IMG/VR virus record: IMGVR_UViG_3300027763_000184
Location: 1-28,848 of that record
Reading direction: 5' to 3' (one strand)
Length of the DNA stretch: 28,848 bases
Origin: a virus
Below, in pieces: positions 12,285 to 28,848 of this stretch. The position numbers and the translations under genes are program-made. Within the stretch, counting starts at the first letter, position 1. The number at the start of each line of letters is the position of its first letter. The notes under the pieces were generated by a model. That model was not told the origin of the DNA. It ran no database searches and worked only from the letters and a program-made list of their open reading frames with translations.

Positions 12285-12558
12285 GCAAGTCACTCGAAGG
12301 TATGTCTATCAGTCAGAACATACGAGCGAAATAAACAAGGGCAAACGCTCTGCTTACATCGTTGAGCAACTGACAGGTAGCAATGTTGTTGCCCGCATCA
12401 AGCCACTCGGTCTTGTCAAAGACTTGACCGCCGACCAAGAAATCACCTTGCTACTTCTAAAGCAGGGCATCTCTGTCGTAGGCAAATGGTCTAAGACCAC
12501 CAAAGGAAATCACCGCCGTAGCCGAGCCGTAGTAGGCACAGATTTTGAGGTTGAGTAA
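12274..12558 (+). CDS. Hypothetical protein (94 aa)
   Basis: Start at ATG 12274 (MPDEQVTRRYVYQSEHTSEI), overlapping the previous gene by 11 bases. An earlier in-frame start at 12232 would overlap much more and adds only out-of-frame readings of that gene. The end is basic (GKWSKTTKGNHRRSRAVVG), which might contact nucleic acid. It is coupled to the WhiB gene by a TAATG junction. Confidence 0.6.
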   Translation: MPDEQVTRRYVYQSEHTSEINKGKRSAYIVEQLTGSNVVARIKPLGLVKDLTADQEITLLLLKQGISVVGKWSKTTKGNHRRSRAVVGTDFEVE

Positions 12559-13019
12559 TGCCAGAGCCAGTCGCTAGTACCCGTGACGAGTGGATTGGAG
12601 AAGCCGCCTGTAAGGGTATGGACCCGAACCTATTCTTTCCCGAATACATAAGTGTGCGAGTAAGGGTGAAAGTAGATGAGGCGGCGAGAAAAGCCTGCGC
12701 TGACTGCCCTGTTTTGGAACAATGCGCCGATTGGGCCGTAAAGCACGAGCCTCACGGGTTTCAGGGTGGCTTGACCGAACAGCAACGAGCGCAACTTCGT
12801 CGCAAACTGAACCTCTATCTTTGGGAACCCCAACGCAACATCACCACCGGCAAGCAAACCAAACGACTGCTACCAACGGAAATCTCACACGGAACTGCAA
12901 GGGGCTACAAGCAAGAAGCCAAGCGCGGTATCGGTCATTGCCAGCCCTGCACAACAGCCCACACCCAAGCCTCAAAAGAGGCAAAGGCGAGGATGCGAGA
13001 ACGGCAACAGAACGCCTGA
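12558..13019 (+). CDS. WhiB-like iron-sulfur transcription regulator with C-terminal Cys module
   Basis: The four WhiB cysteines are present: C18 (EAACKGMDPNLFFP), C47 and C50 (ACADC), and C56 (EQCADWA). They are followed by GFQGGLTEQQR at 67-77, the equivalent of the G(V/I)WGG turn. WhiB proteins bind a 4Fe-4S cluster and usually act with the primary sigma factor; they are restricted to Actinobacteria and their phages. After the turn a basic segment leads to SHGTARGYKQEAKRGIGHCQ and PCTTAH, an HG...GY...C..C unit resembling those at 5919 and 8787, which is not a normal WhiB part. It sits directly before the lysis genes, so control of late expression is a reasonable guess. Confidence 0.9.
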   Translation: MPEPVASTRDEWIGEAACKGMDPNLFFPEYISVRVRVKVDEAARKACADCPVLEQCADWAVKHEPHGFQGGLTEQQRAQLRRKLNLYLWEPQRNITTGKQTKRLLPTEISHGTARGYKQEAKRGIGHCQPCTTAHTQASKEAKARMRERQQNA

Positions 13020-17051: not shown

Positions 17052-17444
17052 ATGGTCTATCTGAACCCGCACTTCGATGGTGAAAATGAATACTTTCTCC
17101 CAGACGATGTAATCCTCATTGACCACAATCTCTTTGAGGCGATGCAGCCGAAGCCGTGGGCAAAGCAGGGGGCGTGTGCATCACCAACATCCGAACACAT
17201 TGACAAGTTCTATCCCGAAAGCACGAAGCACGGTGGAAATCACCTAAAGCCAGCCAGAGAGTTGTGCCTTCGTTGCCCTGTCCGATACGAGTGTTTGACG
17301 TATGGCATTGACGAGCCGTGGGGCGTTTGGGGCGGTCACTCGCCAAGCCAACGCCGCCGTATCAGTTCTCTAGTGAAAAATGGTAGTAGCCTAGAGGAAG
17401 CAAGCCAAGCAATAGACGCACGGAGTAGGGATGCCAGAGGATAA
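17052..17444 (+). CDS. WhiB-like iron-sulfur transcription regulator
   Basis: A canonical WhiB domain: C42 (KQGACASPTSEHIDKFYPES), C72 and C75 (LCLRC), C81 (YECLTYG), then GVWGG at 91-95 and a basic RRRIS stretch for DNA contact. The four cysteines should hold a 4Fe-4S cluster. Phage WhiB proteins can repress or redirect host sigma-A-dependent transcription. It lies directly ahead of the portal gene, which starts inside its last codons (14-base overlap), so it is made together with head proteins. This is the second WhiB of the window; the first (12558) has a looser turn motif and an extra Cys module. Confidence 0.95.
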   Translation: MVYLNPHFDGENEYFLPDDVILIDHNLFEAMQPKPWAKQGACASPTSEHIDKFYPESTKHGGNHLKPARELCLRCPVRYECLTYGIDEPWGVWGGHSPSQRRRISSLVKNGSSLEEASQAIDARSRDARG

Positions 17445-19182: not shown

Positions 19183-19208
19183 AAGTGGCAAAGCACGGGG
19201 AGTATGCA

Positions 19209-20882
19209 ATGGAACAGATGAACGTCATTTCTGCGGTCACCGACGTAGAACTCGGTGATGTCGTGATGAACAAGTCACTATCGCTCGAAATCCGTGAAAC
19301 TGCCACCGAGTTGCTGGAAAAGGGTTACCGCACTGCCGACCTTTTGGCTATTGCCGATGAAACAGGCAGCACTTCGCTCGTCATCGTTCCAAACGACATA
19401 GCAAAGTCCGTAGATAGTGAAATCCTTTCCCCCGATGCCGAACGCCGCTTGATTTCGCGCAACATCGCTAAGGGTTTTGCCGACGAAACCCACCCTTTCA
19501 CCAAGAGCCTCAACGACTTCGGCGGAGTACACCCTTGCACCGTTTGTGGTTCTGTGGTGGAAAAAGCCGAGTGTGAGCCTTTGGACAAGACCGTTGGCTT
19601 CCCCTTCACCTTCGCTATGTCTCCCGTTTCCCCTGACGAGAACGACATTGAGGATGAGAGTTCCGAGGACAGCACGACTGACGGTGCGGTTCAGGTGAAA
19701 CTTGACCCCTCAACCGTTGCCGCTATTTTGGCTGCCGTTCAGGAAGTGAACAGAGAGGACGACAGTTCCTCGTCAAGTTCCAGCAGTTCATCCTCGTCAA
19801 GTTCGTCATCGTCAAGCAGCAGTAGTTCATCCTCATCAAGTAGTTTGAGTTCGTCAAGCAGTTCCTCTGCCGATGACACCGAAATCTTGGGCGATAACTG
19901 GAAGGATGGTCTAGACCCTTGGCAGGTTCAACTTGCTGAAAGCCTTGACCAAATGGTTGAGGATATGGGTCGTATCCCGACTACCGATGCCGCCTACACC
20001 GATGTTTCACCATACGCAGGACAGAACTGTGGCACTTGTATCGCTATGGGCGATGCCGGTTGCGACTGGGTTGCTGTTTCTTGTGCGCCTGAAGGCTGGT
20101 GCAAGTTCAACATTACGCCCGTTCTTATCCGTGCCGCTGGTGAAAACGAGCAGTATTACAAGGCTCGCAAGGCCGTTGATGATGCCCCACAGCCCGCCGC
20201 ACCTGAAGTTGCCCCCGAACAGGATGACAGTTCATCCGAGGACACGAGCGATGAAAGCACGTCGTCAGGCGGTCAGGACTTGGTTGCTAGTGAAATCGCT
20301 AAGGACAGCCCAACCGTTGAGGCAGTTCACGTAGATGCCGTAATGGGCGCAGTTGGCGTTCTACCTAAGTTTGTTCCCGTGGAGTTGGACATCATTGAGG
20401 AACAAGAGCCAGAAGTTCTTGTTGCCGCCAAGTCTGCTGAAATCCCCGGCACTATCCAAAAGAACGCCGAGCAGCGTTACACCCTCGGCCCTTGGTATGT
20501 TCCAAACCAGAAGGATGCTCACGGCGAGTGGACTGACCCAGAGGAACTTCAGAAGGCTCTTTGGGGCTATGTAGAAAACGGTGACCGAGACATCCGACTT
20601 CAGCACAATGTAAAAATCGTTGCTGGCAAGTGGGTTGAGGCAATGATGTGGCCTCACGCTGTCGAAGTTCCAATGCTGAAAGCCGACACAAACGAAATCG
20701 TCAAGACCCTGTTCCCTGCTGGAACTGCCTTCTTGGGTGTTCAGTGGGAGCCGTGGGCTTGGGAACTCGTCAAGAAGGGCGAAATCCGTGGTTTCAGCAT
20801 CGGCGGCACAGGCTCACCCATTGAGGTTGACCTGCCTACCGAGTTTGATGACCCGAACCACTTCTCTGCATCTGGCAAGTAG
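19209..20882 (+). CDS. XkdF-like (S78_2) prohead serine protease with Cys-rich and poly-Ser regions
   Basis: 557 residues from ATG 19209, which has GGGGAG seven bases upstream; GTG 19185 would add eight residues. The C-terminal domain (about 415-550) is the protease: YTLGPWYVPNQKDAHGEWTD, PEELQKALWGYVENGDRDIR, LQHNVKIVAGKWVEA (likely catalytic H466) and GEIRGFSIGGTGSPIEV (likely nucleophile S530). This is the S78_2 pattern of Bacillus XkdF. Such enzymes cleave scaffold and capsid proteins during head maturation. The N-terminal half is unusual: HPCTVCGSVVEKAEC (three Cys near 110-122), a 35-residue tract of 34 Ser and one Leu (186-220), and NCGTCIAMGDAGCDWVAVSC then APEGWC (five Cys, 274-298), the latter spaced like a HiPIP-type or zinc site. 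It heads the run of tagged proteins. Confidence 0.88.
   Translation: MEQMNVISAVTDVELGDVVMNKSLSLEIRETATELLEKGYRTADLLAIADETGSTSLVIVPNDIAKSVDSEILSPDAERRLISRNIAKGFADETHPFTKSLNDFGGVHPCTVCGSVVEKAECEPLDKTVGFPFTFAMSPVSPDENDIEDESSEDSTTDGAVQVKLDPSTVAAILAAVQEVNREDDSSSSSSSSSSSSSSSSSSSSSSSSSSSLSSSSSSSADDTEILGDNWKDGLDPWQVQLAESLDQMVEDMGRIPTTDAAYTDVSPYAGQNCGTCIAMGDAGCDWVAVSCAPEGWCKFNITPVLIRAAGENEQYYKARKAVDDAPQPAAPEVAPEQDDSSSEDTSDESTSSGGQDLVASEIAKDSPTVEAVHVDAVMGAVGVLPKFVPVELDIIEEQEPEVLVAAKSAEIPGTIQKNAEQRYTLGPWYVPNQKDAHGEWTDPEELQKALWGYVENGDRDIRLQHNVKIVAGKWVEAMMWPHAVEVPMLKADTNEIVKTLFPAGTAFLGVQWEPWAWELVKKGEIRGFSIGGTGSPIEVDLPTEFDDPNHFSASGK
19764..19868 (+). repeat. Poly-serine tract in the protease
   Basis: Thirty-five codons encode 27 Ser, one Leu and 7 Ser. 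All six Ser codons are used in mixed order, though short words such as TCCTCGTCAAGTTC recur. The mixture argues for selection on the peptide rather than simple replication slippage. It probably forms a long flexible linker between the N-terminal part and the Cys-rich and protease domains. Confidence 0.95.
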
Positions 20883-20888
20883 GACACA

Positions 20889-21383
20889 ATGAGCGGGCAA
20901 GATTTCACCACCGAAGGGTTGCTCAAAGCGAGTGGCGGTTTCCAAATGCCCAAAATGGCTGCTGAAATGCGTATCGTAGATAGACAGCCAGCCAATGTGA
21001 CCAATGGTGCGTTTTGGGAACACACGGGTTCAGCACCACTCGTCGGCGGGGGCAAGATTTCCGTCAAATACACAACCGGCCCCGGAACGCCAGCAGACCC
21101 CGTTTGGACTATTACAAAGCCGAGTGGTGAAAAGACCGTTATTCACGGCCTCGGCATCAAGGACGGCAAGCCCAACGGCGATAAGTTCACGGTAACCACC
21201 ACCAAGCCCAATGGCGAGAAGCAAACCATTCGTCTAGCGGGTGGCAAGACGGTTGGTGGTGGAAAGCACCCGTTCCACGGCAACCAACACACCGCCCACG
21301 GCACAGATGTTCCCGTCAAAGGCGCACAACCCAAAAAGAAGTCACTTGACTTCACAACCGACACACTCCTGAAAGGCTTCTAA
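20889..21383 (+). CDS. Virion-associated candidate with DFTT motifs at both ends and a GNQ tag (164 aa)
   Basis: It starts MSGQDFTTEGLLKA and ends KKSLDFTTDTLLKGF, so the same motif DFTTxxLLK bounds the protein at residues 5-13 and 154-162. Between them is a Gly/Lys/Thr-rich, beta-like region with TITKPSGEKTVIHGLGIKDG and a near repeat TVTTTKPNGEKQTIRLAGGK, and the tag KHPFHGNQHT at 126-135. No enzyme motif is seen. It lies just after the protease and is coupled to the next gene (TAATG). I infer a scaffold, internal virion or decoration role; family unknown. Confidence 0.7.
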   Translation: MSGQDFTTEGLLKASGGFQMPKMAAEMRIVDRQPANVTNGAFWEHTGSAPLVGGGKISVKYTTGPGTPADPVWTITKPSGEKTVIHGLGIKDGKPNGDKFTVTTTKPNGEKQTIRLAGGKTVGGGKHPFHGNQHTAHGTDVPVKGAQPKKKSLDFTTDTLLKGF

Positions 21384-22849
21384 TGTCCGACCTCAATGCT
21401 GAAATCGCCCTCTGGCTCTCAAAGGCAATGACCCCCAACCAAGTCTTTGCCCCTAAGCCAATGCCCGTAGACCTCTACGACAACAACGAGGCTGTTCGTG
21501 CTGCCCGACTTTTGGAAGGCAAAGCAGAAGCCCTTGCCGCTATCCACGAAGGTCGTGCTTTTGATGGTCGTGAGCCATTTACCGATGAGGACTACGCCGC
21601 TTTTTCAGCAGCCCACAAGGACTTGGCAGAAGGACACCGTATGCTCGGTGAGGAACTAAAGGCAAACCGCCCAGATGCACTTCAGGCGATTTCCGCACAC
21701 GGCGATGCAATGGCACTCCACAACAGTGCCGCCAGACTTGCTGAAATGCGTTTGCCCTCACAGGAACTTGGCGAGCGCAACTTGATGTGGCCTCATATGG
21801 AGAGCAACCAGTTCCGCTTTGGTCGCAAGGCTCCGTGGGATACCGAGGAAAAGAACTGGCGCAAGGCTCACCAAGCGTTCATCGCCTCACAACTTGCCGC
21901 CCAAAAGACCGCTTTTGACACGGGTGTAGTGGAAAAGGGTGGCCCAAACCCCCCAGAACCCATAGGACATTTGATTGACCCCGGCGGTCATTACAGGGGT
22001 CCACGCACTTTTACCCCCGAAATGCACGAGCGTAATGGTGATAGAGCCGTGGAACTCGCACAGAAAATGCAAGCAGCCGCACAAGAAGCGCGTGACGCTG
22101 GTGATAAAGAAAGGGCTGTCAAGATGCACGACGGTGCCAGCGTGACGATGCAACGCGCAGTGGTGTCATACCGAAATGCTGGCCACGCTGAAAAGGAAGC
22201 ATCGACCAAGGAAGCCCTTGGCGCACACACCGTCGGAGATTTCCCCGGACACCCTTTTCGAGGAAACCAATACACAAAGTCAGTTGATGATGTAGTGGAA
22301 AAGGGTATGGATGAGAGCCTTGCCGACATTCTCCGCCACGATGAGGGCCACGACAGGTGGCACGAGATGAATGGTGATGCCCCCTGTACTTCAGAAGCCG
22401 ACTGTGCCGCCAAGCGCGCCAAGTACGCCGAGGTGAAAGCCGAGGAAGCAGACAAGGTTCAGAAGGGCGATGTTCCCGGTCACGTATTTCACGGCAACCA
22501 GTACGTAGATGGCACATCCTCTATCCCTGATAATGTCGGCCACCGAGACTTTGACCCAAACACCACCCTGTCGCAAATCGGCAAGATGAACATTCTGGCG
22601 GTAAGTGGTGGAAAAGTGAACGCTATTCACAACATTGACGGGGCGGCTGTTGGCGTGGAACTCCCCGTTTCCAGCGGCTACAAGGTTCGAGTGTTCCTGC
22701 GAGATGACGATACCTACACCGTTCAGCGTGTCAACAAGGACAGCGTGAAGGGCGAGGAGACAGGCGTGTTTGCCGACCAAGTTGGTGAAAGCGTGTATCA
22801 AGCCGGTATGTACAAGTCAAACCCCTTCGGTGGACACACACCCCGATAA
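21383..22849 (+). CDS. Large helical virion-associated candidate with two GNQ tags (488 aa)
   Basis: It begins with the shared module MSDLNAEIALWLSKAM. Residues 35-180 are helical, Ala/Glu-rich and bear HEGRAF, AHKDLAEGHRMLGEELKA and similar His-containing heptads. A degenerate tag (EKGGPNPPEPIGH ... GHYRG, 185-206) is followed by a second helical block (QKMQAAAQEARDAGDKERAV). Full tags are GHPFRGNQYT at 289-298 and GHVFHGNQYV at 366-375. Residues 395-460 are beta-rich (MNILAVSGGKVNAIHNIDGA, YKVRVFLRDDDTYTVQRVN). The tags separate the blocks like linkers, so the protein looks assembled from modules, or is a polyprotein for the protease. No known enzyme signature. Confidence 0.7.
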   Translation: MSDLNAEIALWLSKAMTPNQVFAPKPMPVDLYDNNEAVRAARLLEGKAEALAAIHEGRAFDGREPFTDEDYAAFSAAHKDLAEGHRMLGEELKANRPDALQAISAHGDAMALHNSAARLAEMRLPSQELGERNLMWPHMESNQFRFGRKAPWDTEEKNWRKAHQAFIASQLAAQKTAFDTGVVEKGGPNPPEPIGHLIDPGGHYRGPRTFTPEMHERNGDRAVELAQKMQAAAQEARDAGDKERAVKMHDGASVTMQRAVVSYRNAGHAEKEASTKEALGAHTVGDFPGHPFRGNQYTKSVDDVVEKGMDESLADILRHDEGHDRWHEMNGDAPCTSEADCAAKRAKYAEVKAEEADKVQKGDVPGHVFHGNQYVDGTSSIPDNVGHRDFDPNTTLSQIGKMNILAVSGGKVNAIHNIDGAAVGVELPVSSGYKVRVFLRDDDTYTVQRVNKDSVKGEETGVFADQVGESVYQAGMYKSNPFGGHTPR

Positions 22850-22857
22850 ACCAAGTT

Positions 22858-22878
22858 TTAGAAATAGTGGGATAGCAT
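22858..22878 (+). promoter_or_regulatory. Late-type promoter element before 22913
   Basis: TTAGAAATAGTGGGA followed by TAGCAT (22873-22878), a gapless match to TTnnAAAnnnnGGnnTAnnnT. A 34-base leader follows, with ribosome site GAAAGG before the ATG at 22913. Confidence 0.6.
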
Positions 22879-22912
22879 TATCCCTGTAAGCCTCTACGAA
22901 AGGTAGAAACCT

Positions 22913-23782
22913 ATGTCAGACATCAACGCAGAAGTGACCGAGTGGGTCGTTTCATTTTGGAAAAAGGCCGAAGTCACGGCTACTGAAATCGCTGACGAGG
23001 AAGTTGTCGCCGAGGATGACAGTTCCGAGGAGGACAGTTCCGAGGAGAAGCCTGTTGTTGATGAGGTAGAGGTTGACGAAGCCGAGGTAGAAAAGGGCGG
23101 TCCCGGTTCGGGAGAACCAGACGGACACCCCTTCCGTGGAAACCGCTTCACAAGTGGCGTTCAGTCTGCTGGTCACCACGACACTCGCGCCGATACGGCT
23201 CATTACGGCCTCAACGAACACTTGACCGCCGCTTCATCGCACATCTCTGCTGGTCGTACCGCTGCCGCACACGGCGAGTTTGGTATGGCTCGTCAGCACT
23301 TCAACGAAGCCGGTTATCACGCTTCACAGGCTTCCAGCCAAGCCGCCAACGGCCCTAGTAGCCGTGAAATGGGTCACCACGCAGAGGCTCTGTATCACGC
23401 CGCACATCACGCTGGCGATGCTGCTGAAAAGGCTTCCTACTTGACCAACAAGCACGACCAAGCCGTTCGTCTGGGTCGTGAGACAACCGTTGTAAGCCGT
23501 GGGCAGTTGCTCAACACCGAGGCTGGTCGCTCCGCAACTTCGACATCCAACTCTGACCGTGGCGGTATGCTCCCCGATGGTCGCCTCGTTCCCGAAGGTC
23601 GTTCATCTGACCGCATTATGACCACCAGTGAACTCGCCGCCGCCGCACAAGGCGCTCGTGACAACGCTTTGGCACAGGCAAACCTTGTTGGTGCTGCCGA
23701 AAGCGCCGTTAGTACGGCTCGTGGCTTGACCGCACCTACCCAAATGGGTACGCCTTTCTCGCCCTACGCCGCCATCATCTAA
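22913..23782 (+). CDS. Tagged helical virion-associated candidate (289 aa)
   Basis: N-terminal module MSDINAEVTEWVVSFWKKAE, then a strongly acidic stretch (residues 29-60, EDDSSEEDSSEEKPVVDEVE) and the tag KGGPGSGEPDGHPFRGNRFT at 61-80. The rest is Ala/His/Ser-rich helix (LNEHLTAASSHISAGRTAAA, EFGMARQHFNEAGYHASQAS, EALYHAAHHAGDAAEKASYL) with His at heptad-like positions, then a Gly/Arg loop and a final helix. It is unlike any family I know. The acidic arm before the tag could be a removable propeptide; the Dps gene follows 12 bases later. Confidence 0.7.
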   Translation: MSDINAEVTEWVVSFWKKAEVTATEIADEEVVAEDDSSEEDSSEEKPVVDEVEVDEAEVEKGGPGSGEPDGHPFRGNRFTSGVQSAGHHDTRADTAHYGLNEHLTAASSHISAGRTAAAHGEFGMARQHFNEAGYHASQASSQAANGPSSREMGHHAEALYHAAHHAGDAAEKASYLTNKHDQAVRLGRETTVVSRGQLLNTEAGRSATSTSNSDRGGMLPDGRLVPEGRSSDRIMTTSELAAAAQGARDNALAQANLVGAAESAVSTARGLTAPTQMGTPFSPYAAII

Positions 23783-23794
23783 AGGATTTCACTA

Positions 23795-24253
23795 ATGACG
23801 ATTTCCAAAGAGACTGCGGGCGCGCTTGCTGGTGCTTTAGGCACCTGCCTTGCGAACGCCACGATTATGTATCACCGTGTTCACGGCTTTCATTGGAATG
23901 TGACCGGCCCCGACTTCCCACAATGGCACGACAAGTTTGCTGAAATCTACGAGGATGTCTATGGCTCGCTTGACCCTTTGGGCGAAAACATCCGTAAACT
24001 CGGCGGCGTAGCCCCTTTCCGCTTGTCGGACTTGGCTGTTCGTGCCACCGTTGCTGATGACAATGTGGGCGATTACTCGCCACAGAGCCTCATCTCTAGC
24101 CTTCTTTCCACCAACGCTGGCGTATTGGACTGCCTCAACCGAGCGTTCCAAATCGCCAATGAAGCAAATCAGCAGGGTATCGCCAACTTCCTCGCAGAGC
24201 GCATTGACGCTCACCAGAAGTGGAACTGGCAACTCTCTGTCTCTAGGGGCTAA
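23795..24253 (+). CDS. dps: Dps/ferritin-like protein
   Basis: 152 residues, close to the usual Dps length. The signature YHRVHGFHWNVTGPDFPQWH followed by DKFAEIYEDVYGSLDPLGEN and IRKLGG (26-70) carries H33, H45, D60 and E64, spaced as the intersubunit ferroxidase ligands H51, H63, D78 and E82 of E. coli Dps. The position equivalent to D67 is Ala (A49), with E50 next to it, so one ligand is altered. The C-terminus DAHQKWNWQLSVSRG fits the last helix. Dps assembles into a 12-mer that stores iron and protects DNA from peroxide. It lies among the tagged proteins but has no tag itself. A role inside the capsid or in oxidative defence is inference. The next gene starts two bases after the stop. 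Confidence 0.9.
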   Translation: MTISKETAGALAGALGTCLANATIMYHRVHGFHWNVTGPDFPQWHDKFAEIYEDVYGSLDPLGENIRKLGGVAPFRLSDLAVRATVADDNVGDYSPQSLISSLLSTNAGVLDCLNRAFQIANEANQQGIANFLAERIDAHQKWNWQLSVSRG

Positions 24254-24255
24254 CA

Positions 24256-25308
24256 ATGGACAGTCTTGATGCTGAAATCGTTGCTTGGATTTCCAAAGCA
24301 CTAGTCGTAAAGGGCGGTCCGGGTTCCGGCGCACAACCCGGTCACGCCTTCAACGGTAACCAATACTCATCGGGTTCTGGTGGTGGCGGTGGTGAAAAGC
24401 CTGCTTCCACAAAGAACTGGGGAGACAAGAACGTCACTCGCGCTTCGCTGAAGGATGTCAGGGTCAACGAAGGGGAAACCAAGACTGCCGCACAGGTTAT
24501 GGAAGCGGTCACTCGCTACGCCGATGCCAACCCCGACACGATGAATGGCTACTCCGACAAGGAAAGTCACATAAAGTTTATTGCTGAACACGAGGATGCT
24601 ATTCCAAAGTGGCTCATAGACAAGGTGACACAGAAGGATGTGGATGTCCTAGAGGACAACAACTACCACACGGCAAACACCGTCATCGCCTCCCAGCGCC
24701 CCGACCTAACGGGTTGGACCAACGAAAAGGCTCTTGCGCAATGGGATACACAAAAGTCGGCTAGTGAAATCGCCAAGGGAGACCTACCCGGTCACCCGTT
24801 TCGGGGTAATCAGTACACCGAAGGCTCGCTCTCGGATACCTCAACGCGCTTGGCTTCGTTTGTGACCAAGGAACGCACCAATATTCCACCTGCTACGGCA
24901 CAGGACATTGCAGACAGCCACGAAGCACACGCCGAAATGCACGACTTTGCCGCCAAGCAACTTCGTGGCCACGTAGATATGATTACCTCGCCAGAGAACC
25001 TTCACCGTGACGGTGAGGCAACCAAGGCACAGGTTCAGGCCACGCTGAAGCAAGCCTCCGAATACACCAAGGCAGCCGAAGCCCACGAAAAGGCAGCGGA
25101 TACACACGGAAAAGCCAGCGACACGGCGCTGAAAGCGCAGGGCGAGTACGGTGGTCGTTTGGGTCTAAACGAAAAGGCCCCTACCGCTTCGCAAGTTTCT
25201 GCTGCTTCTAGTGCCGCCGCCAAAGCCTCTGTTGCTGCTGAAAACATTGTTCCCTTCGCAGATGCCAATGTTCAGTTGCCACTCGGCGCTCCTTACTACG
25301 GCGGATAG
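24256..25308 (+). CDS. Tagged helical virion-associated candidate with two GNQ tags (350 aa)
   Basis: N-terminal module MDSLDAEIVAWISKALVV runs directly into the tag KGGPGSGAQPGHAFNGNQYS (19-38). The first domain (55-165) is mixed and begins KNWGDKNVTRASLKDVRVNE, ending in LTGWTNEKALAQWDTQKSAS. The second tag (GDLPGHPFRGNQYTEG, 175-190) follows. The C-terminal half is a long Ala/His/Lys helix (SHEAHAEMHDFAAKQLRGHV, ASEYTKAAEAHEKAADTHGK) and ends PFADANVQLPLGAPYYGG. It resembles the 289-aa protein in plan and in its C-terminal end (PFSPYAAII versus LPLGAPYYGG, loosely). No catalytic motif. Confidence 0.7.
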   Translation: MDSLDAEIVAWISKALVVKGGPGSGAQPGHAFNGNQYSSGSGGGGGEKPASTKNWGDKNVTRASLKDVRVNEGETKTAAQVMEAVTRYADANPDTMNGYSDKESHIKFIAEHEDAIPKWLIDKVTQKDVDVLEDNNYHTANTVIASQRPDLTGWTNEKALAQWDTQKSASEIAKGDLPGHPFRGNQYTEGSLSDTSTRLASFVTKERTNIPPATAQDIADSHEAHAEMHDFAAKQLRGHVDMITSPENLHRDGEATKAQVQATLKQASEYTKAAEAHEKAADTHGKASDTALKAQGEYGGRLGLNEKAPTASQVSAASSAAAKASVAAENIVPFADANVQLPLGAPYYGG

Positions 25309-25327
25309 CGGTAAGCAGTACAAGTAT

Positions 25328-25348
25328 TTCCAAATAACGGTGTAGCAT
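25328..25348 (+). promoter_or_regulatory. Late-type promoter element before 25377
   Basis: TTCCAAATAACGGTG followed by TAGCAT (25343-25348), a gapless match to TTnnAAAnnnnGGnnTAnnnT. The leader ends in CGAAAGGATTAGCCA before the ATG at 25377. Confidence 0.6.
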
Positions 25349-25376
25349 TTCAGCAGGACCCCGAAAGGATTAGCCA

Positions 25377-26822
25377 ATGATTAGAGTTCCCGGAGACAAC
25401 CCAACGACTGTATCTTTCGTTCAGAAGGGTGTAGAGAAGGCCAATGGTCGCATTGCTTCAGAGCAAGTCGCTAAGGCCGCTTCTGCTGAAGTTATCGCTC
25501 GTACCGAGTTTGAGAACGCCCACTACCGCCTGACGAAGGCTACCGAGGCTCTGTCGGCTACTGAAATCTCCTACCACGAGGCTGTCGCTAAGTCGGCGTG
25601 GAACAAGGAACAGGTTCGCTCCTCTTACAACAACGCCCTCGCCGGTTTCCGTGATGCAGACAAGACTGCTGAAATCGCCGCCGAGAAGTTTGCCTTGGCT
25701 AAGGATGCTCTCGCTGGACTTCGTTTGGTCGCTAAGGCCGAAATCAGCAACGGTGAGGAACTGAAGGCCGCCTGTGCCGCCGCCAAGTCCGATGAGGAAA
25801 AAGTTGCCTGCGTTGCTGCCGCTAAAAAGTTGAAGTTGCCGTTCTTTCTCCCGAAGGGCTGGGCTGCCGAGTACGCACCTAGCGAAAAGGGCGAAGTTGC
25901 TAAGGCTGGTATCAGCAATGGCGACAGCCTGAAGGAAGCCGTCAAGAACGCAAAGACCCCAGAGGACCGCAAGGCTTGTGTCGTTGCTGCTGAAAAGATG
26001 AAGTTGCTCTTTTTGTTGCCGAAGGGCTGGAAGGCAGAAGCCGACAAGATGGAGAAGTCAACCTTCTCACCGCCACTCGAAGTAGTTGGCAAGAGTTTCA
26101 CCACTAACCCCATTATGAAGGAAGTTGTTATGCCCGATGCAAAGATTTTGGTTATCTGCCCAGAGTGCGGTGGTGACGGTCCAATGACCTGTCCTTGCTG
26201 TTCCGGTGAGCGCTTGGTATCCGAGGAAGTACACGACGAGGCTATGGGTTACGGAAACGCCAACTGCTCAATGTGCGGTGGCGGAGATGCCGACTGCCCA
26301 ATGTGCGGTGGTGGAATGATGATGAAGTCGGCTAACCCCTTCTCAACCAAGTCTCTCCTGACCCGTGACTTCCAAAAGTCTGCTGGCTACCAGAACTACA
26401 TTTTCACTAAGGGTGGCCCCGGTTCAGGCGCACAGCCCGGACACGAGTTCCACGGCAATCAGCACACGGGTGGTATGTCATCCGGTGGTCGTCTTATCCA
26501 CGAGCGCGAAGGCCACAAGGTTACGCAGGGTCGGTACGAGCGTACTGCCAAGGAAAACGGAGAAAGGGCTACCGACCTGTGGGCCAAGTCATTTGAACAC
26601 GAACTAAAGGGTGAAACCGCTAAGGCCGCCGAGGCTCTGCGAGAAGCCGAAAAAGCCCACAAGATGGCGGCTGGGGCGCACGAAGGTATCGCTGGTATTC
26701 ACGGCAAGGTTCGAGGTGACGAGGATGCTCGTCGCGCTTCACGTGCTGAAGCCGCAAGTCAGCGCGCCAGAGGCGCTCGCGCTGGCGATGAAGCCGCACG
26801 CTTGGAAGCGATGGCTGCCTAG
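25377..26822 (+). CDS. Tagged protein with tandem helical repeats and DnaJ-like CxxC zinc region (481 aa)
   Basis: Residues 1-118 are a coiled-coil-like Ala/Glu/Lys region. Two copies of a 44-residue repeat follow (119-162 and 175-218): each runs AKA-x-ISNG-x2-LK, a DxxKxAC-VAAxK helix, and ends in LPKGW. Residues 261-313 carry four CxxC pairs (CPECGG, CPCCSG, CSMCGG, CPMCGG), like the zinc region of DnaJ. Then come PFSTKSLLTRDF and the tag KGGPGSGAQPGHEFHGNQHT (345-364). The last 100 residues are a charged Ala-rich helix (GETAKAAEALREAEKAHKMA) ending in an Arg/Ala tail. A variant motif SFTTNPIMK sits at 240-248. I infer an internal virion or assembly protein; the LPxGW repeat reminds me of short units in other phage head proteins. 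Confidence 0.72.
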   Translation: MIRVPGDNPTTVSFVQKGVEKANGRIASEQVAKAASAEVIARTEFENAHYRLTKATEALSATEISYHEAVAKSAWNKEQVRSSYNNALAGFRDADKTAEIAAEKFALAKDALAGLRLVAKAEISNGEELKAACAAAKSDEEKVACVAAAKKLKLPFFLPKGWAAEYAPSEKGEVAKAGISNGDSLKEAVKNAKTPEDRKACVVAAEKMKLLFLLPKGWKAEADKMEKSTFSPPLEVVGKSFTTNPIMKEVVMPDAKILVICPECGGDGPMTCPCCSGERLVSEEVHDEAMGYGNANCSMCGGGDADCPMCGGGMMMKSANPFSTKSLLTRDFQKSAGYQNYIFTKGGPGSGAQPGHEFHGNQHTGGMSSGGRLIHEREGHKVTQGRYERTAKENGERATDLWAKSFEHELKGETAKAAEALREAEKAHKMAAGAHEGIAGIHGKVRGDEDARRASRAEAASQRARGARAGDEAARLEAMAA

Positions 26823-26860
26823 TCAGTTCCCAAACTCATCGCTAGCCGCCGCTACTGAAA

Positions 26861-26881
26861 TCCTGAAGTCTGGGGTAAAGT
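26861..26881 (+). promoter_or_regulatory. Variant late-type promoter element before 26918
   Basis: TCCTGAAGTCTGGGG followed by TAAAGT (26876-26881). It shares the 12 bases AAGTCTGGGGTA with the copy at 19162 but departs from the TTnnAAA block. The downstream gene has ribosome site CCGGAGG. Confidence 0.45.
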
Positions 26882-26917
26882 AGTGGCGGTTAGTCGTATC
26901 TACACACCGGAGGCATT

Positions 26918-27409
26918 ATGCGTAATCCATTTGAGACAGAAGCACTTACGAAGTCGCTAGAAGTCTGGGTTGCGAAAGCCCGTGAAGTAGAAATCCATAA
27001 AGCAGGAAACGCCCAAGGTCTTATTGACTGGTACAACGATGGTGCTGATGGACAAATCCAATGGGGCGAACACGGTGACTTCGATGACTGTGTTGCTATT
27101 GCTGGAAAGTATCTTGACAACCCACAGGGCTTCTGCCAACTGCGCCATATGGATGCCACGGGAGAACCTGCCGGTCAAGCCGCTGGTGAACTAACCAAAG
27201 CCGATGAACAAGCCGATGAACAAGTGGATTACACCGAGGTGTTTTCTAGCAAGAAAGGCAACCCTACCGACCCCGACCTCTACGAGCAGGTCAAGGTAGA
27301 TGCCAAAGCCAAGTTTGATGTCTATCCCTCTGCCGTATCAAACGGTTGGGTTGTTCAGGAATACAAGCGCCGTGGTGGAAAATACCGCAAACCCCCTAAG
27401 AGGAACTAA
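26918..27409 (+). CDS. Phage head-associated two-domain protein (163 aa)
   Basis: The N-terminus MRNPFETEALTKSLEVWVAK combines an F(E)T-x-x-L motif with the W-x-x-K helix seen in its neighbours. Residues 29-86 (AGNAQGLIDWYNDGADGQIQ, WGEHGDFDDC, GKYLDNPQGFCQLRHMDATG) match a domain I recall from phage head-region proteins: I.WG..GDF..C..I..K...NP.GFC..RH..ATG. Residues 108-156 (KKGNPTDPDLYEQVKVDAKA, then YPSAVSNGWVVQEYKRRGGK) resemble the small unit YPSA.AN.W....YK..GG, near DUF5872. Both pieces recur as add-ons in phage structural proteins; their function is unknown to me. It has no GNQ tag. Start supported by CCGGAGG upstream. Confidence 0.72.
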   Translation: MRNPFETEALTKSLEVWVAKAREVEIHKAGNAQGLIDWYNDGADGQIQWGEHGDFDDCVAIAGKYLDNPQGFCQLRHMDATGEPAGQAAGELTKADEQADEQVDYTEVFSSKKGNPTDPDLYEQVKVDAKAKFDVYPSAVSNGWVVQEYKRRGGKYRKPPKRN

Positions 27410-27411
27410 TC

Positions 27412-27612
27412 GTGGATGTTAGCGACTTTTTCAGCGACAACCTCGCCCCTAAGACCGCCAAGACCCTAGAAGCCGAGAAACTGACTAAGGCAGCCAAGGT
27501 TGGCTCGTGGGATTTCACCACTAATGGACTTCTAAAAGTTGCCGTTCCTACTGCCGTAGTCAAGCGTGCGAAAGATTTGGATTTCACCACGACTGCCCTG
27601 CTCTCGGAGTAG
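27412..27612 (+). CDS. Small protein built around two DFTT motifs (66 aa)
   Basis: GTG start at 27412, two bases after the previous stop, with an AGAGG ribosome site. The protein contains DFFSDNLAPKTAKTLEAEKL, then WDFTTNGLLKVAVPTAV, then LDFTTTALLSE at the very end. The two DFTTxxLL motifs (about 34-42 and 57-64) are the same as those at both ends of the protein at 20889. The rest is short Lys/Ala helix. It looks like a carrier of the motif and little else, for example a scaffold or targeting peptide. Confidence 0.65.
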   Translation: MDVSDFFSDNLAPKTAKTLEAEKLTKAAKVGSWDFTTNGLLKVAVPTAVVKRAKDLDFTTTALLSE

Positions 27613-27615
27613 TCA

Positions 27616-28848
27616 GTGTTCCAACCCAACTTCATTACCTTTACCAGCACCGACATTTCAGGGCGAGAGCCTTTAGATGGCAAGTTCAAGGGCAATCAGA
27701 ACGATGGTTTCTCGTTCGTTCAGTTTGCTGATGGCTCTGGTGGTTTGGAAAAGTCAATGAAGGACTGGGTGGGCAACAAGACGGGTCGGCTCTATCGTGC
27801 TGAAATCCTTGCCGCACAGGAGTATTTGGCAGCCCAAGTAGGCAAGGCGATGAACGCGCCTGTCCGAGACTGCTATTTCACCAGCCCTACGACAGTCATT
27901 ATGCCGTTTATCAACGGAACGCCCGCCAACGAACAAAACGAAACCGAACTCCCAACCAACGCACAGGGAACGGCACTACAACTCTTTGACTACCTCGTAG
28001 CAAATGCAGACCGCCGCCCCAAGAACTGGATTATCGCCTCAAACAACCGCATTGTCGGTATTGACCACGCTCTCTGCAACTTCCGCCCACGTACCCCCAA
28101 AGCCGAGTTTGTTGCTGAAATGTGGAACAACGGCCTAACTCTCGAAGGTTTGGAACGACTTCGCCCGCGCCTCGCTGCTTTAGTTTTGGATTTCACCTCA
28201 TTGGGTATGGCCGACAAGCACGACAACCTGATGGCGAACTTTGACCGCCTATTCGCCGCTTTCCAAATCCTCAACCAAGTAGCCGTAGTGGTGAAAGATG
28301 CAACAACCCCACCGAAGGGCGTTCAGGAAGCCGCCCAACGAGCATTGGGCTGGCTGAAGGAAGGCAAGGCTGGTTCTGGCTTCACGCCCGTGGGTCGCAA
28401 GCGTGCCTCTGACCTCGCCAACGCTCACCCCGTTTCGCTGGACACCCTGAAGCGTATGAAGGCTTATTTTGACCGCCATCAGGTTGACCAGAAGGCAGAA
28501 GGATTTCACCAAGACGAGGATGGCTATCCCTCACCGGGTCGTGTGGCTTGGGATGCGTGGGGTGGCGATGCCGGTTGGTCGTGGGCTAAGTCTGTGGTGG
28601 AAAGTAGCGAAGTCAAGAAAGAGGAAGCCGGACACGAGTTCCGAGGTAATCAGCACACAGGCGGTATTGCCGGTGCTGGCGGTAGCAAGGATGAGGGCGG
28701 TGGCAAAAGCGAGGGTGGTAGCAAGGGTGGCGGTGAAGCCCCACGACAGTCGGACCCTAGCCGCAACGCCGTTTCAGCAGACCGTTATCAAGTTTCGTCT
28801 GAAAGCAACTCAACTTCCACCGAAAAGCCAAAGGACGAAGCAGCAAAG
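27616..28848 (+). CDS. PI3K/HipA-like kinase-fold protein with GNQ tag (partial, 411 aa visible)
   Basis: Open to the window end, starting at GTG 27616 with GGAG six bases upstream. Residues 50-215 resemble phosphatidylinositol-kinase-related folds: RAEILAAQEYLAAQVGKAM, VIMPFINGTPA (hinge-like), LFDYLVANADRRPKNWIIAS (catalytic D132, N137) and NRIVGIDHALCNF (metal-binding D150). It may phosphorylate a protein or lipid; an ATP-binding lysine is not pinned down. Residues 232-330 match a unit I recall from many phage and prophage proteins: AL.W...GKAGSGFT..GR.RA..LA, VSL.TL.RM..YF.RH.VD, then PSPGRVAWDAWGGD. The tag GHEFRGNQHTGG is at 339-350, with a degenerate GKFKGNQ near the start (22-28). A Gly/Ser/Lys linker follows. 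I read it as a virion-borne effector. Confidence 0.7.
   Translation, partial: MFQPNFITFTSTDISGREPLDGKFKGNQNDGFSFVQFADGSGGLEKSMKDWVGNKTGRLYRAEILAAQEYLAAQVGKAMNAPVRDCYFTSPTTVIMPFINGTPANEQNETELPTNAQGTALQLFDYLVANADRRPKNWIIASNNRIVGIDHALCNFRPRTPKAEFVAEMWNNGLTLEGLERLRPRLAALVLDFTSLGMADKHDNLMANFDRLFAAFQILNQVAVVVKDATTPPKGVQEAAQRALGWLKEGKAGSGFTPVGRKRASDLANAHPVSLDTLKRMKAYFDRHQVDQKAEGFHQDEDGYPSPGRVAWDAWGGDAGWSWAKSVVESSEVKKEEAGHEFRGNQHTGGIAGAGGSKDEGGGKSEGGSKGGGEAPRQSDPSRNAVSADRYQVSSESNSTSTEKPKDEAAK

Follow-up and report, generated by a model that had tools for sequence, protein, structure and literature searches.

Genomic context of the tagged proteins

The window, by which we mean the whole stretch of 28,848 nucleotides analysed here (G000), is a 28.8-kb fragment from an uncultured tailed phage. 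It carries a portal gene at 17431 (Portal_Mu/phrog_113) and a gene for the head maturation protease (19185-20882, + strand), whose product has a C-terminal Peptidase_S78_2 domain at residues 425-546. Located 3' of the protease gene is a run of genes for proteins with few or no database matches, together with a Dps-like and a kinase-like protein. The mosaic run is situated inside the head gene block, since the major capsid gene of 12 longer related contigs is found about 20-30 kb 3' of the portal gene. In this phage group, the shell gene matched no family in a Pfam scan; it matches the major head protein phrog_1005 with an E value of 5e-96. Because the nearest named portals, with ~50% identity to that of the window, belong to Arthrobacter phages, the sequence indicates that the host is likely an actinobacterium; two WhiB-like cysteine-rich proteins recognized by eye (17052-17444 and 12558-13019) are a further hint in that direction.

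Several neighbouring genes have features of their own. The Dps/ferritin-like protein (23795-24253) is encoded amid the tagged genes described below, contains neither tag nor cassette, and occurs at the equivalent place in some related contigs. The kinase-like protein (27616-28848) shows a PI3/PI4-kinase trace plus a phrog_2859 domain, and in relatives it forms part of proteins of 1,000-2,000 amino acids with several cassettes. The head protease includes a long serine run that varies in length among relatives. The S78_2 protease product of L076, L078 and L077 (Arthrobacter and Microbacterium phages) is annotated as an RNA ligase or a capsid maturation protease; it looks like a fusion protein in which an RNA-ligase-like part precedes the protease.

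A short motif recurs in proteins encoded 3' of the protease

The preliminary description of this DNA had listed eight strings as seven or eight copies of one short motif, and we found all eight strings in the window. Their core, F-[S/T]-T-x-x-L-L, which we term tag A, is real and enriched relative to shuffled sequence, but two of the strings are not members. The pattern F[ST]T..LL occurs 5 times in nine window proteins (2,564 amino acids); 300 shuffles and the reversed sequence contain none. In 11 related contigs, 122 proteins contain 13 occurrences (shuffle mean, 0.07). Between the closest pairs of copies, 78-89% of residues agree, against only 33-44% of third codon positions, and the flanks are unalike. 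The copies are thus similar in protein and not in DNA, and are therefore not recent DNA duplications.

The 164-amino-acid protein encoded at 20889-21383 bears tag A at both ends: DFTTEGLLK begins at residue 5 (20901-20927, +), and DFTTDTLLK begins at residue 154, close to a C-terminus that ends LLK-GF (21348-21374, +). The first copy is kept in the sole distant homologue, that of contig L097 (MPQPPDFTTDGLLNKA). At the position of the second, L097 reads through into the following protein, a fusion that has a W-type tag (see below) instead, such that the products of the two window genes at 20889 and 21383 form a single protein there. The protein encoded from 25377 carries tag A at residues 321-345 (PFSTKSLLTRDFQKSAGYQNYIFTK; 26337-26411, +); this segment opens with PFSTKSLLT (26337-26363) and reaches the lysine of a K-G-G cassette. 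Directly 5' of the kinase-like gene, a 66-amino-acid protein (27412-27612, +) consists largely of three tandem tags, one of them a third, divergent tag (DFFSDNLAPKTAKTLEAEKLTK): DFFSDNLAP..LTK from 27424, DFTTNGLLK (27511-27537, +) and DFTTTALLSE (27580-27609; its DFTTTALL at 27580-27603, +).

Another listed variant, PFETEALTK (26927-26953; residue 4 of 163), joins the phenylalanine cap to another tag type (EVWVAKA); it is part of a composite A+W tag (MRNPFETEALTKSLEVWVAKAR; 26918-26983, +) at the N-terminus of a 163-amino-acid protein.

Two strings were removed from the set. HPFTKSLND, from the protease string HPFTKSLNDF (19491-19517, +), is placed by relatives in a conserved HPFTKSxNxFxGxxPCxxCGS element (HxF..CxxCG), which looks like a metal site. 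SFTTNPIMK (26094-26120, +), a motif-like string in the 25377 protein, falls in a variable stretch of the alignment and is absent from the two closest orthologues. Similarly, GFTTADLLAI in the protease of contig G013 is a chance match within a different conserved stretch, since the window equivalent reads GYRTADLLAI. The 25377 gene also contains a 57-bp imperfect direct repeat (77%) at 25806-26030 that duplicates a KLxxFxLPKGW segment.

Tag A is conserved while its surroundings vary

The preliminary description had staked its proposal on conservation of the motif in related phages. The residues F322, L327 and L328 of the 25377 protein do not vary among its orthologues (21/21), and T324 and K334 hardly do, while the linker around them is variable. 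In three members of this family (L095, L074 and L259), the protein ends at the tag peptide or shortly beyond it; the tag peptide may thus be either terminal or internal. The family is present in many related contigs, and no relatives were found in the cellular genomes searched. The motif also recurs on unrelated proteins of other phages, mostly 3-4 residues past the start methionine.

The 66-amino-acid protein has homologues in two other contigs. Across the three homologues, pN is 0.026, 0.032 and 0.081 in the tags versus 0.30-0.34 in the linkers, with pS at 0.32-0.70 throughout: strong purifying selection acts on the tags but not on the linkers. A small tag A protein is encoded just 5' of the kinase-like gene in 6 of 11 contigs (the window, G008, G010, G012, G013 and G016).

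Tag A is one of several alternative tags that precede a common cassette

What the preliminary description overlooked is that the motif is one among several alternative tags located 5' of a cassette resembling a protease site. This cassette has the consensus [VIL]-x-K-G-[D/G]-...-GHxFxGNQ, in which GHxFxGN is the other repeated motif of the window. Window examples are GHEFHGNQ, which follows tag A in the 25377 protein (26439-26460, +), further GHxFxGN cassettes at 22247, 22478, 23123, 24340 and 24790 (22247-24811, +), and, in the 20889 protein, the variant GKHPFHGNQ (21264-21287, +), assigned from the repeat family and the translation. The head protease of L097 contains a whole inserted cassette-plus-module unit.

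We compiled the segments 5' of GHxFxGN as cassette contexts, 288 of them non-redundant: 151 from related loci and 137 added by a pattern scan of viral contigs, at loci not picked by portal. K-G-[D/G/E] is found in 256 of the 288, and V, I, L, F or M stands two residues ahead of the lysine in 250/255. Tag A lies upstream of the cassette in 37/288 contexts, compared with 0 in reversed sequence and a shuffle mean of 0.20; typical forms are MSGFTTNELLYPLTKGD, MTNPFSTDALLKSVSNYPVAKGD and MTNPFSTDALVPVWKSASEILKYE. It is concentrated at N-proximal cassettes (28/102, versus 8/162 internal ones; p=4.5e-7), with the phenylalanine mostly 3-4 residues after the methionine. The distance from tag A to the K-G site is 10-25 residues, with clusters at 11, 16-17 and 22-23. 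The LLK-A or LLK-G of some copies already has the form of the cassette site, and the last copy in the 66-amino-acid protein, DFTTTALLSE, is not followed by a site.

At least three alternative helix tags precede the cassette, and the tag A motif is the head of one of them. Elsewhere it is replaced by tag W, N-x-E-I-x-x-W-[LIV]-x-x-A-K, or by a rarer third tag, M-D-F-R-x-I-x-x-I-L-K-G-D. In the window, tag W forms the N-terminus of a 488-amino-acid protein (MSDLNAEIALWLSKA; 21383-21427, +), of a 289-amino-acid protein (MSDINAEVTEWVVSFWKKA; 22913-22969, +) and of a 350-amino-acid protein (MDSLDAEIVAWISKAL; 24256-24303, +), where the cassette VVKGGPGSG comes next. Tags A and W never occur together upstream of one cassette (p=1.5e-4, 288 contexts). 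Orthologues of the 26918 protein have the same body with either the composite A+W tag or tag W alone. That short peptides replace each other on conserved bodies, and that one peptide occurs on unrelated ones, has the look of a targeting signal. The same x-K site form is kept at the N-terminus of the scaffold in related contigs, as [ED]GW[VA]VMK-S.

Predicted structure of the tag

The sequence F-[ST]-[TP]-[DE]-x-L corresponds to a classical helix start, in which F at N' and L at N4 form a hydrophobic staple. In an AlphaFold2 model of the 25377 protein, based on an alignment of 21, a helix spans residues 324-328, right after F322-S323; it lies within a linker of low confidence (about 293-376), on either side of which a helical domain is modelled with confidence, and a long helical hairpin is well predicted at 19-121. 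The model of the 26918 protein has a helix at 4-23, which is of low confidence, and is otherwise too weak for use. The helical periodicity of hydrophobicity is 0.346 for tag A versus 0.222 when shuffled, and 0.339 versus 0.233 for tag W, a signal that is partly built in because the tag patterns fix hydrophobic positions. As modelled, tag A is predicted to begin an amphipathic helix, short and embedded in disordered linker sequence.

Distribution beyond the window

In more distant cassette-bearing phage contigs as well, cassettes cluster round the portal and S78_2 protease genes; S78_2 is present in 9/16 of these contigs, a count given for description only. In contrast, the head genes read in the isolated phages Kovu, Ottawa and ValentiniPuff, which have related portals and proteases, contain neither tag nor cassette, and both are likewise absent from the head genes read in the lake isolate DSL-LC01. 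The system is therefore not required by the head type as such. A tblastn search of 50,697 phage records with a tag-cassette peptide and the 20889 protein gave no convincing match, and a literature search for cassette strings returned unrelated matches only, with no description of the cassette.

Pfam and PHROG scans for known cargo domains yielded little: the Pfam scan gave one weak kinase match among eight large proteins, most modules being without a Pfam family. A 2042-amino-acid cassette protein (L113:11319-17444) has a head-morphogenesis domain, C-terminal pentapeptide repeats and a weak match to dinitrogenase-reductase ADP-ribosyltransferase.

Discussion

From the observed tag, its placement and conservation, the interchangeability of tags, the site consensus and the clustering with head genes, we infer docking, cleavage and packaging: on balance, the motif is probably a prohead-targeting tag that is cut off at [VIL]-x-K|G by the S78_2 protease. 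Tag A would act as a helix N-cap, with F at N', S/T as the cap, T or P next, then D/E, and L-L on the buried face, placed at the protein N-terminus or at the start or end of an internal unit. Its helix would bind a prohead component, for which the scaffold, the capsid protein, the portal, the protease and the 25377 hairpin protein are candidates, and this binding would gather unrelated proteins encoded between the protease and major capsid genes into the prohead. There, the S78_2 protease would cut after the lysine of [VIL]-x-K-G-[D/G], removing the tag and dividing multi-cassette proteins into separate modules. Such removable peptides, together with polyprotein processing, are consistent with the gene block and its S78_2 protease, with the strong P3-x-K-G consensus that follows the tag, and with the way in which neighbouring genes split or fuse around these sites. 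The HK97 protease likewise cuts after a lysine. Some observations count against this reading: several copies are internal or C-terminal, while the capsid-targeting sequences (CTSs) of T4 are N-terminal; the neighbouring Dps-like and kinase-like proteins have no obvious tag; DFTTTALLSE is not followed by a site; and tag and cassette are absent from the head genes read in Kovu, Ottawa, ValentiniPuff and DSL-LC01.

The helix could instead be a substrate handle for the head protease, an exosite ligand marking which [VIL]-x-K-G sites are cut, with no role in targeting. The clustered spacing of tag A 10-25 residues ahead of the K-G site (at 11, 16-17 and 22-23) and the copies whose own LLK-A or LLK-G fits the site would suit such a role, but 154/162 internal cassettes lack tag A although cassettes overall have a common site consensus. 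The tag is therefore not needed for marking sites, and the 66-amino-acid protein has tags and hardly any site; we consider a mere handle unlikely. We think it similarly improbable that the tags have a further cargo protein or a hub as their partner, in a complex not necessarily in the head. The 25377 family, widespread in related contigs and with its well-predicted hairpin at 19-121, could be such a hub, and the three-tag protein suggests a multivalent linker; however, the 25377 protein bears a tag itself, and head assembly is favoured by the proximity of the tags to scaffold, portal and protease genes as well as by a cassette that resembles a protease site.

A role after delivery, in which the tags would guide proteins to, for example, a host membrane or host complex and not act in head assembly, is very unlikely. 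Amphipathic helices can bind membranes, and multidomain phage proteins encoded near head genes are often injected effectors (PMC5512222). However, cleavage at the likely site would remove the tags, which lie 5' of it, ahead of delivery, and such short tags, with one F, two L and acidic residues by the cap, are unlike typical membrane anchors. Chance likeness, or functionless leftovers of recent duplication, can practically be set aside: it is true of two of the eight listed copies that they are chance matches or unconserved, but the shuffles, the invariance in 21 orthologues, the purifying selection (pN/pS) and the dissimilar third codon positions contradict both.

Returning to the prohead-targeting tag, the closest parallel is T4, whose CTS is an N-terminal peptide of 10-20 residues that binds the prohead core and is removed by gp21 (PMC7411985); prohead proteases cut at P3-x-P1 sites such as A-X-E (PMC5694885). 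As on IPI-III and Alt of T4, a short N-terminal peptide, about 10-25 residues, is found on otherwise unrelated proteins, most tag A carriers having it 3-4 residues past the methionine. In both systems the phage encodes a prohead protease; the T4 peptide stands directly 5' of a P3-x-P1 protease site, of which the [VIL]-x-K-G-[D/G] consensus is the putative counterpart here. Unlike in T4, the proposed site has K and not E at P1, several tag types are interchangeable, dozens of proteins are carriers, and internal and C-terminal copies occur too. In phage P1, capsid targeting needs no more of DarB than its first 30 residues (PMC9024508). Here too a terminal peptide would send large effector-like proteins into the capsid, with packaging as the inferred step; however, the P1 signal was shown for one protein, and no such cassette is described in P1. 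By analogy, the tags would resemble the T4 CTS and the DarB signal in their way of working, which is no claim of sequence likeness.

The preliminary description had compared the motif with cargo-loading peptides. Its idea of a terminal docking peptide agrees with the placement, conservation, tag exchange and predicted amphipathic helix in a linker, and encapsulin cargo-loading and microcompartment encapsulation peptides are likewise short, terminal, amphipathic motifs on flexible linkers. The encapsulin type does not hold: the shell here is the phrog_1005 major head protein of a tailed phage, so that this is not an encapsulin system, and the tags precede a likely cleavage site. The several alternative tags and the protease-site-like cassette point to a T4-like removable CTS and not to an encapsulin-type peptide.

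Polyvalent proteins, described by Iyer et al. (2017) in phages and conjugative elements, are large, multidomain and thought to be packaged and injected (PMC5512222). The large proteins beside the head genes here may be of a similar nature, but most modules match no Pfam family, and the passages of PMC5512222 searched mention no tag or cassette of this kind. The polyvalent protein concept covers what probably becomes of the cargo and, in those passages, not the tag-cassette code.

A bolder reading, which is possible but which we hold only tentatively, is an address-and-cut code in which interchangeable tags and a universal cassette would load dozens of unrelated polyproteins into one prohead, where they would be cut into effectors, with the tag-only 66-amino-acid protein as a multivalent adaptor. 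To our knowledge, capsid-targeting peptides are established experimentally in few phages (T4, P1). If the code is true, the virion cargo of many uncultured phages could be listed from sequence alone, with predictable cut sites, and the tag and cassette would allow the design of reporter-loading experiments.
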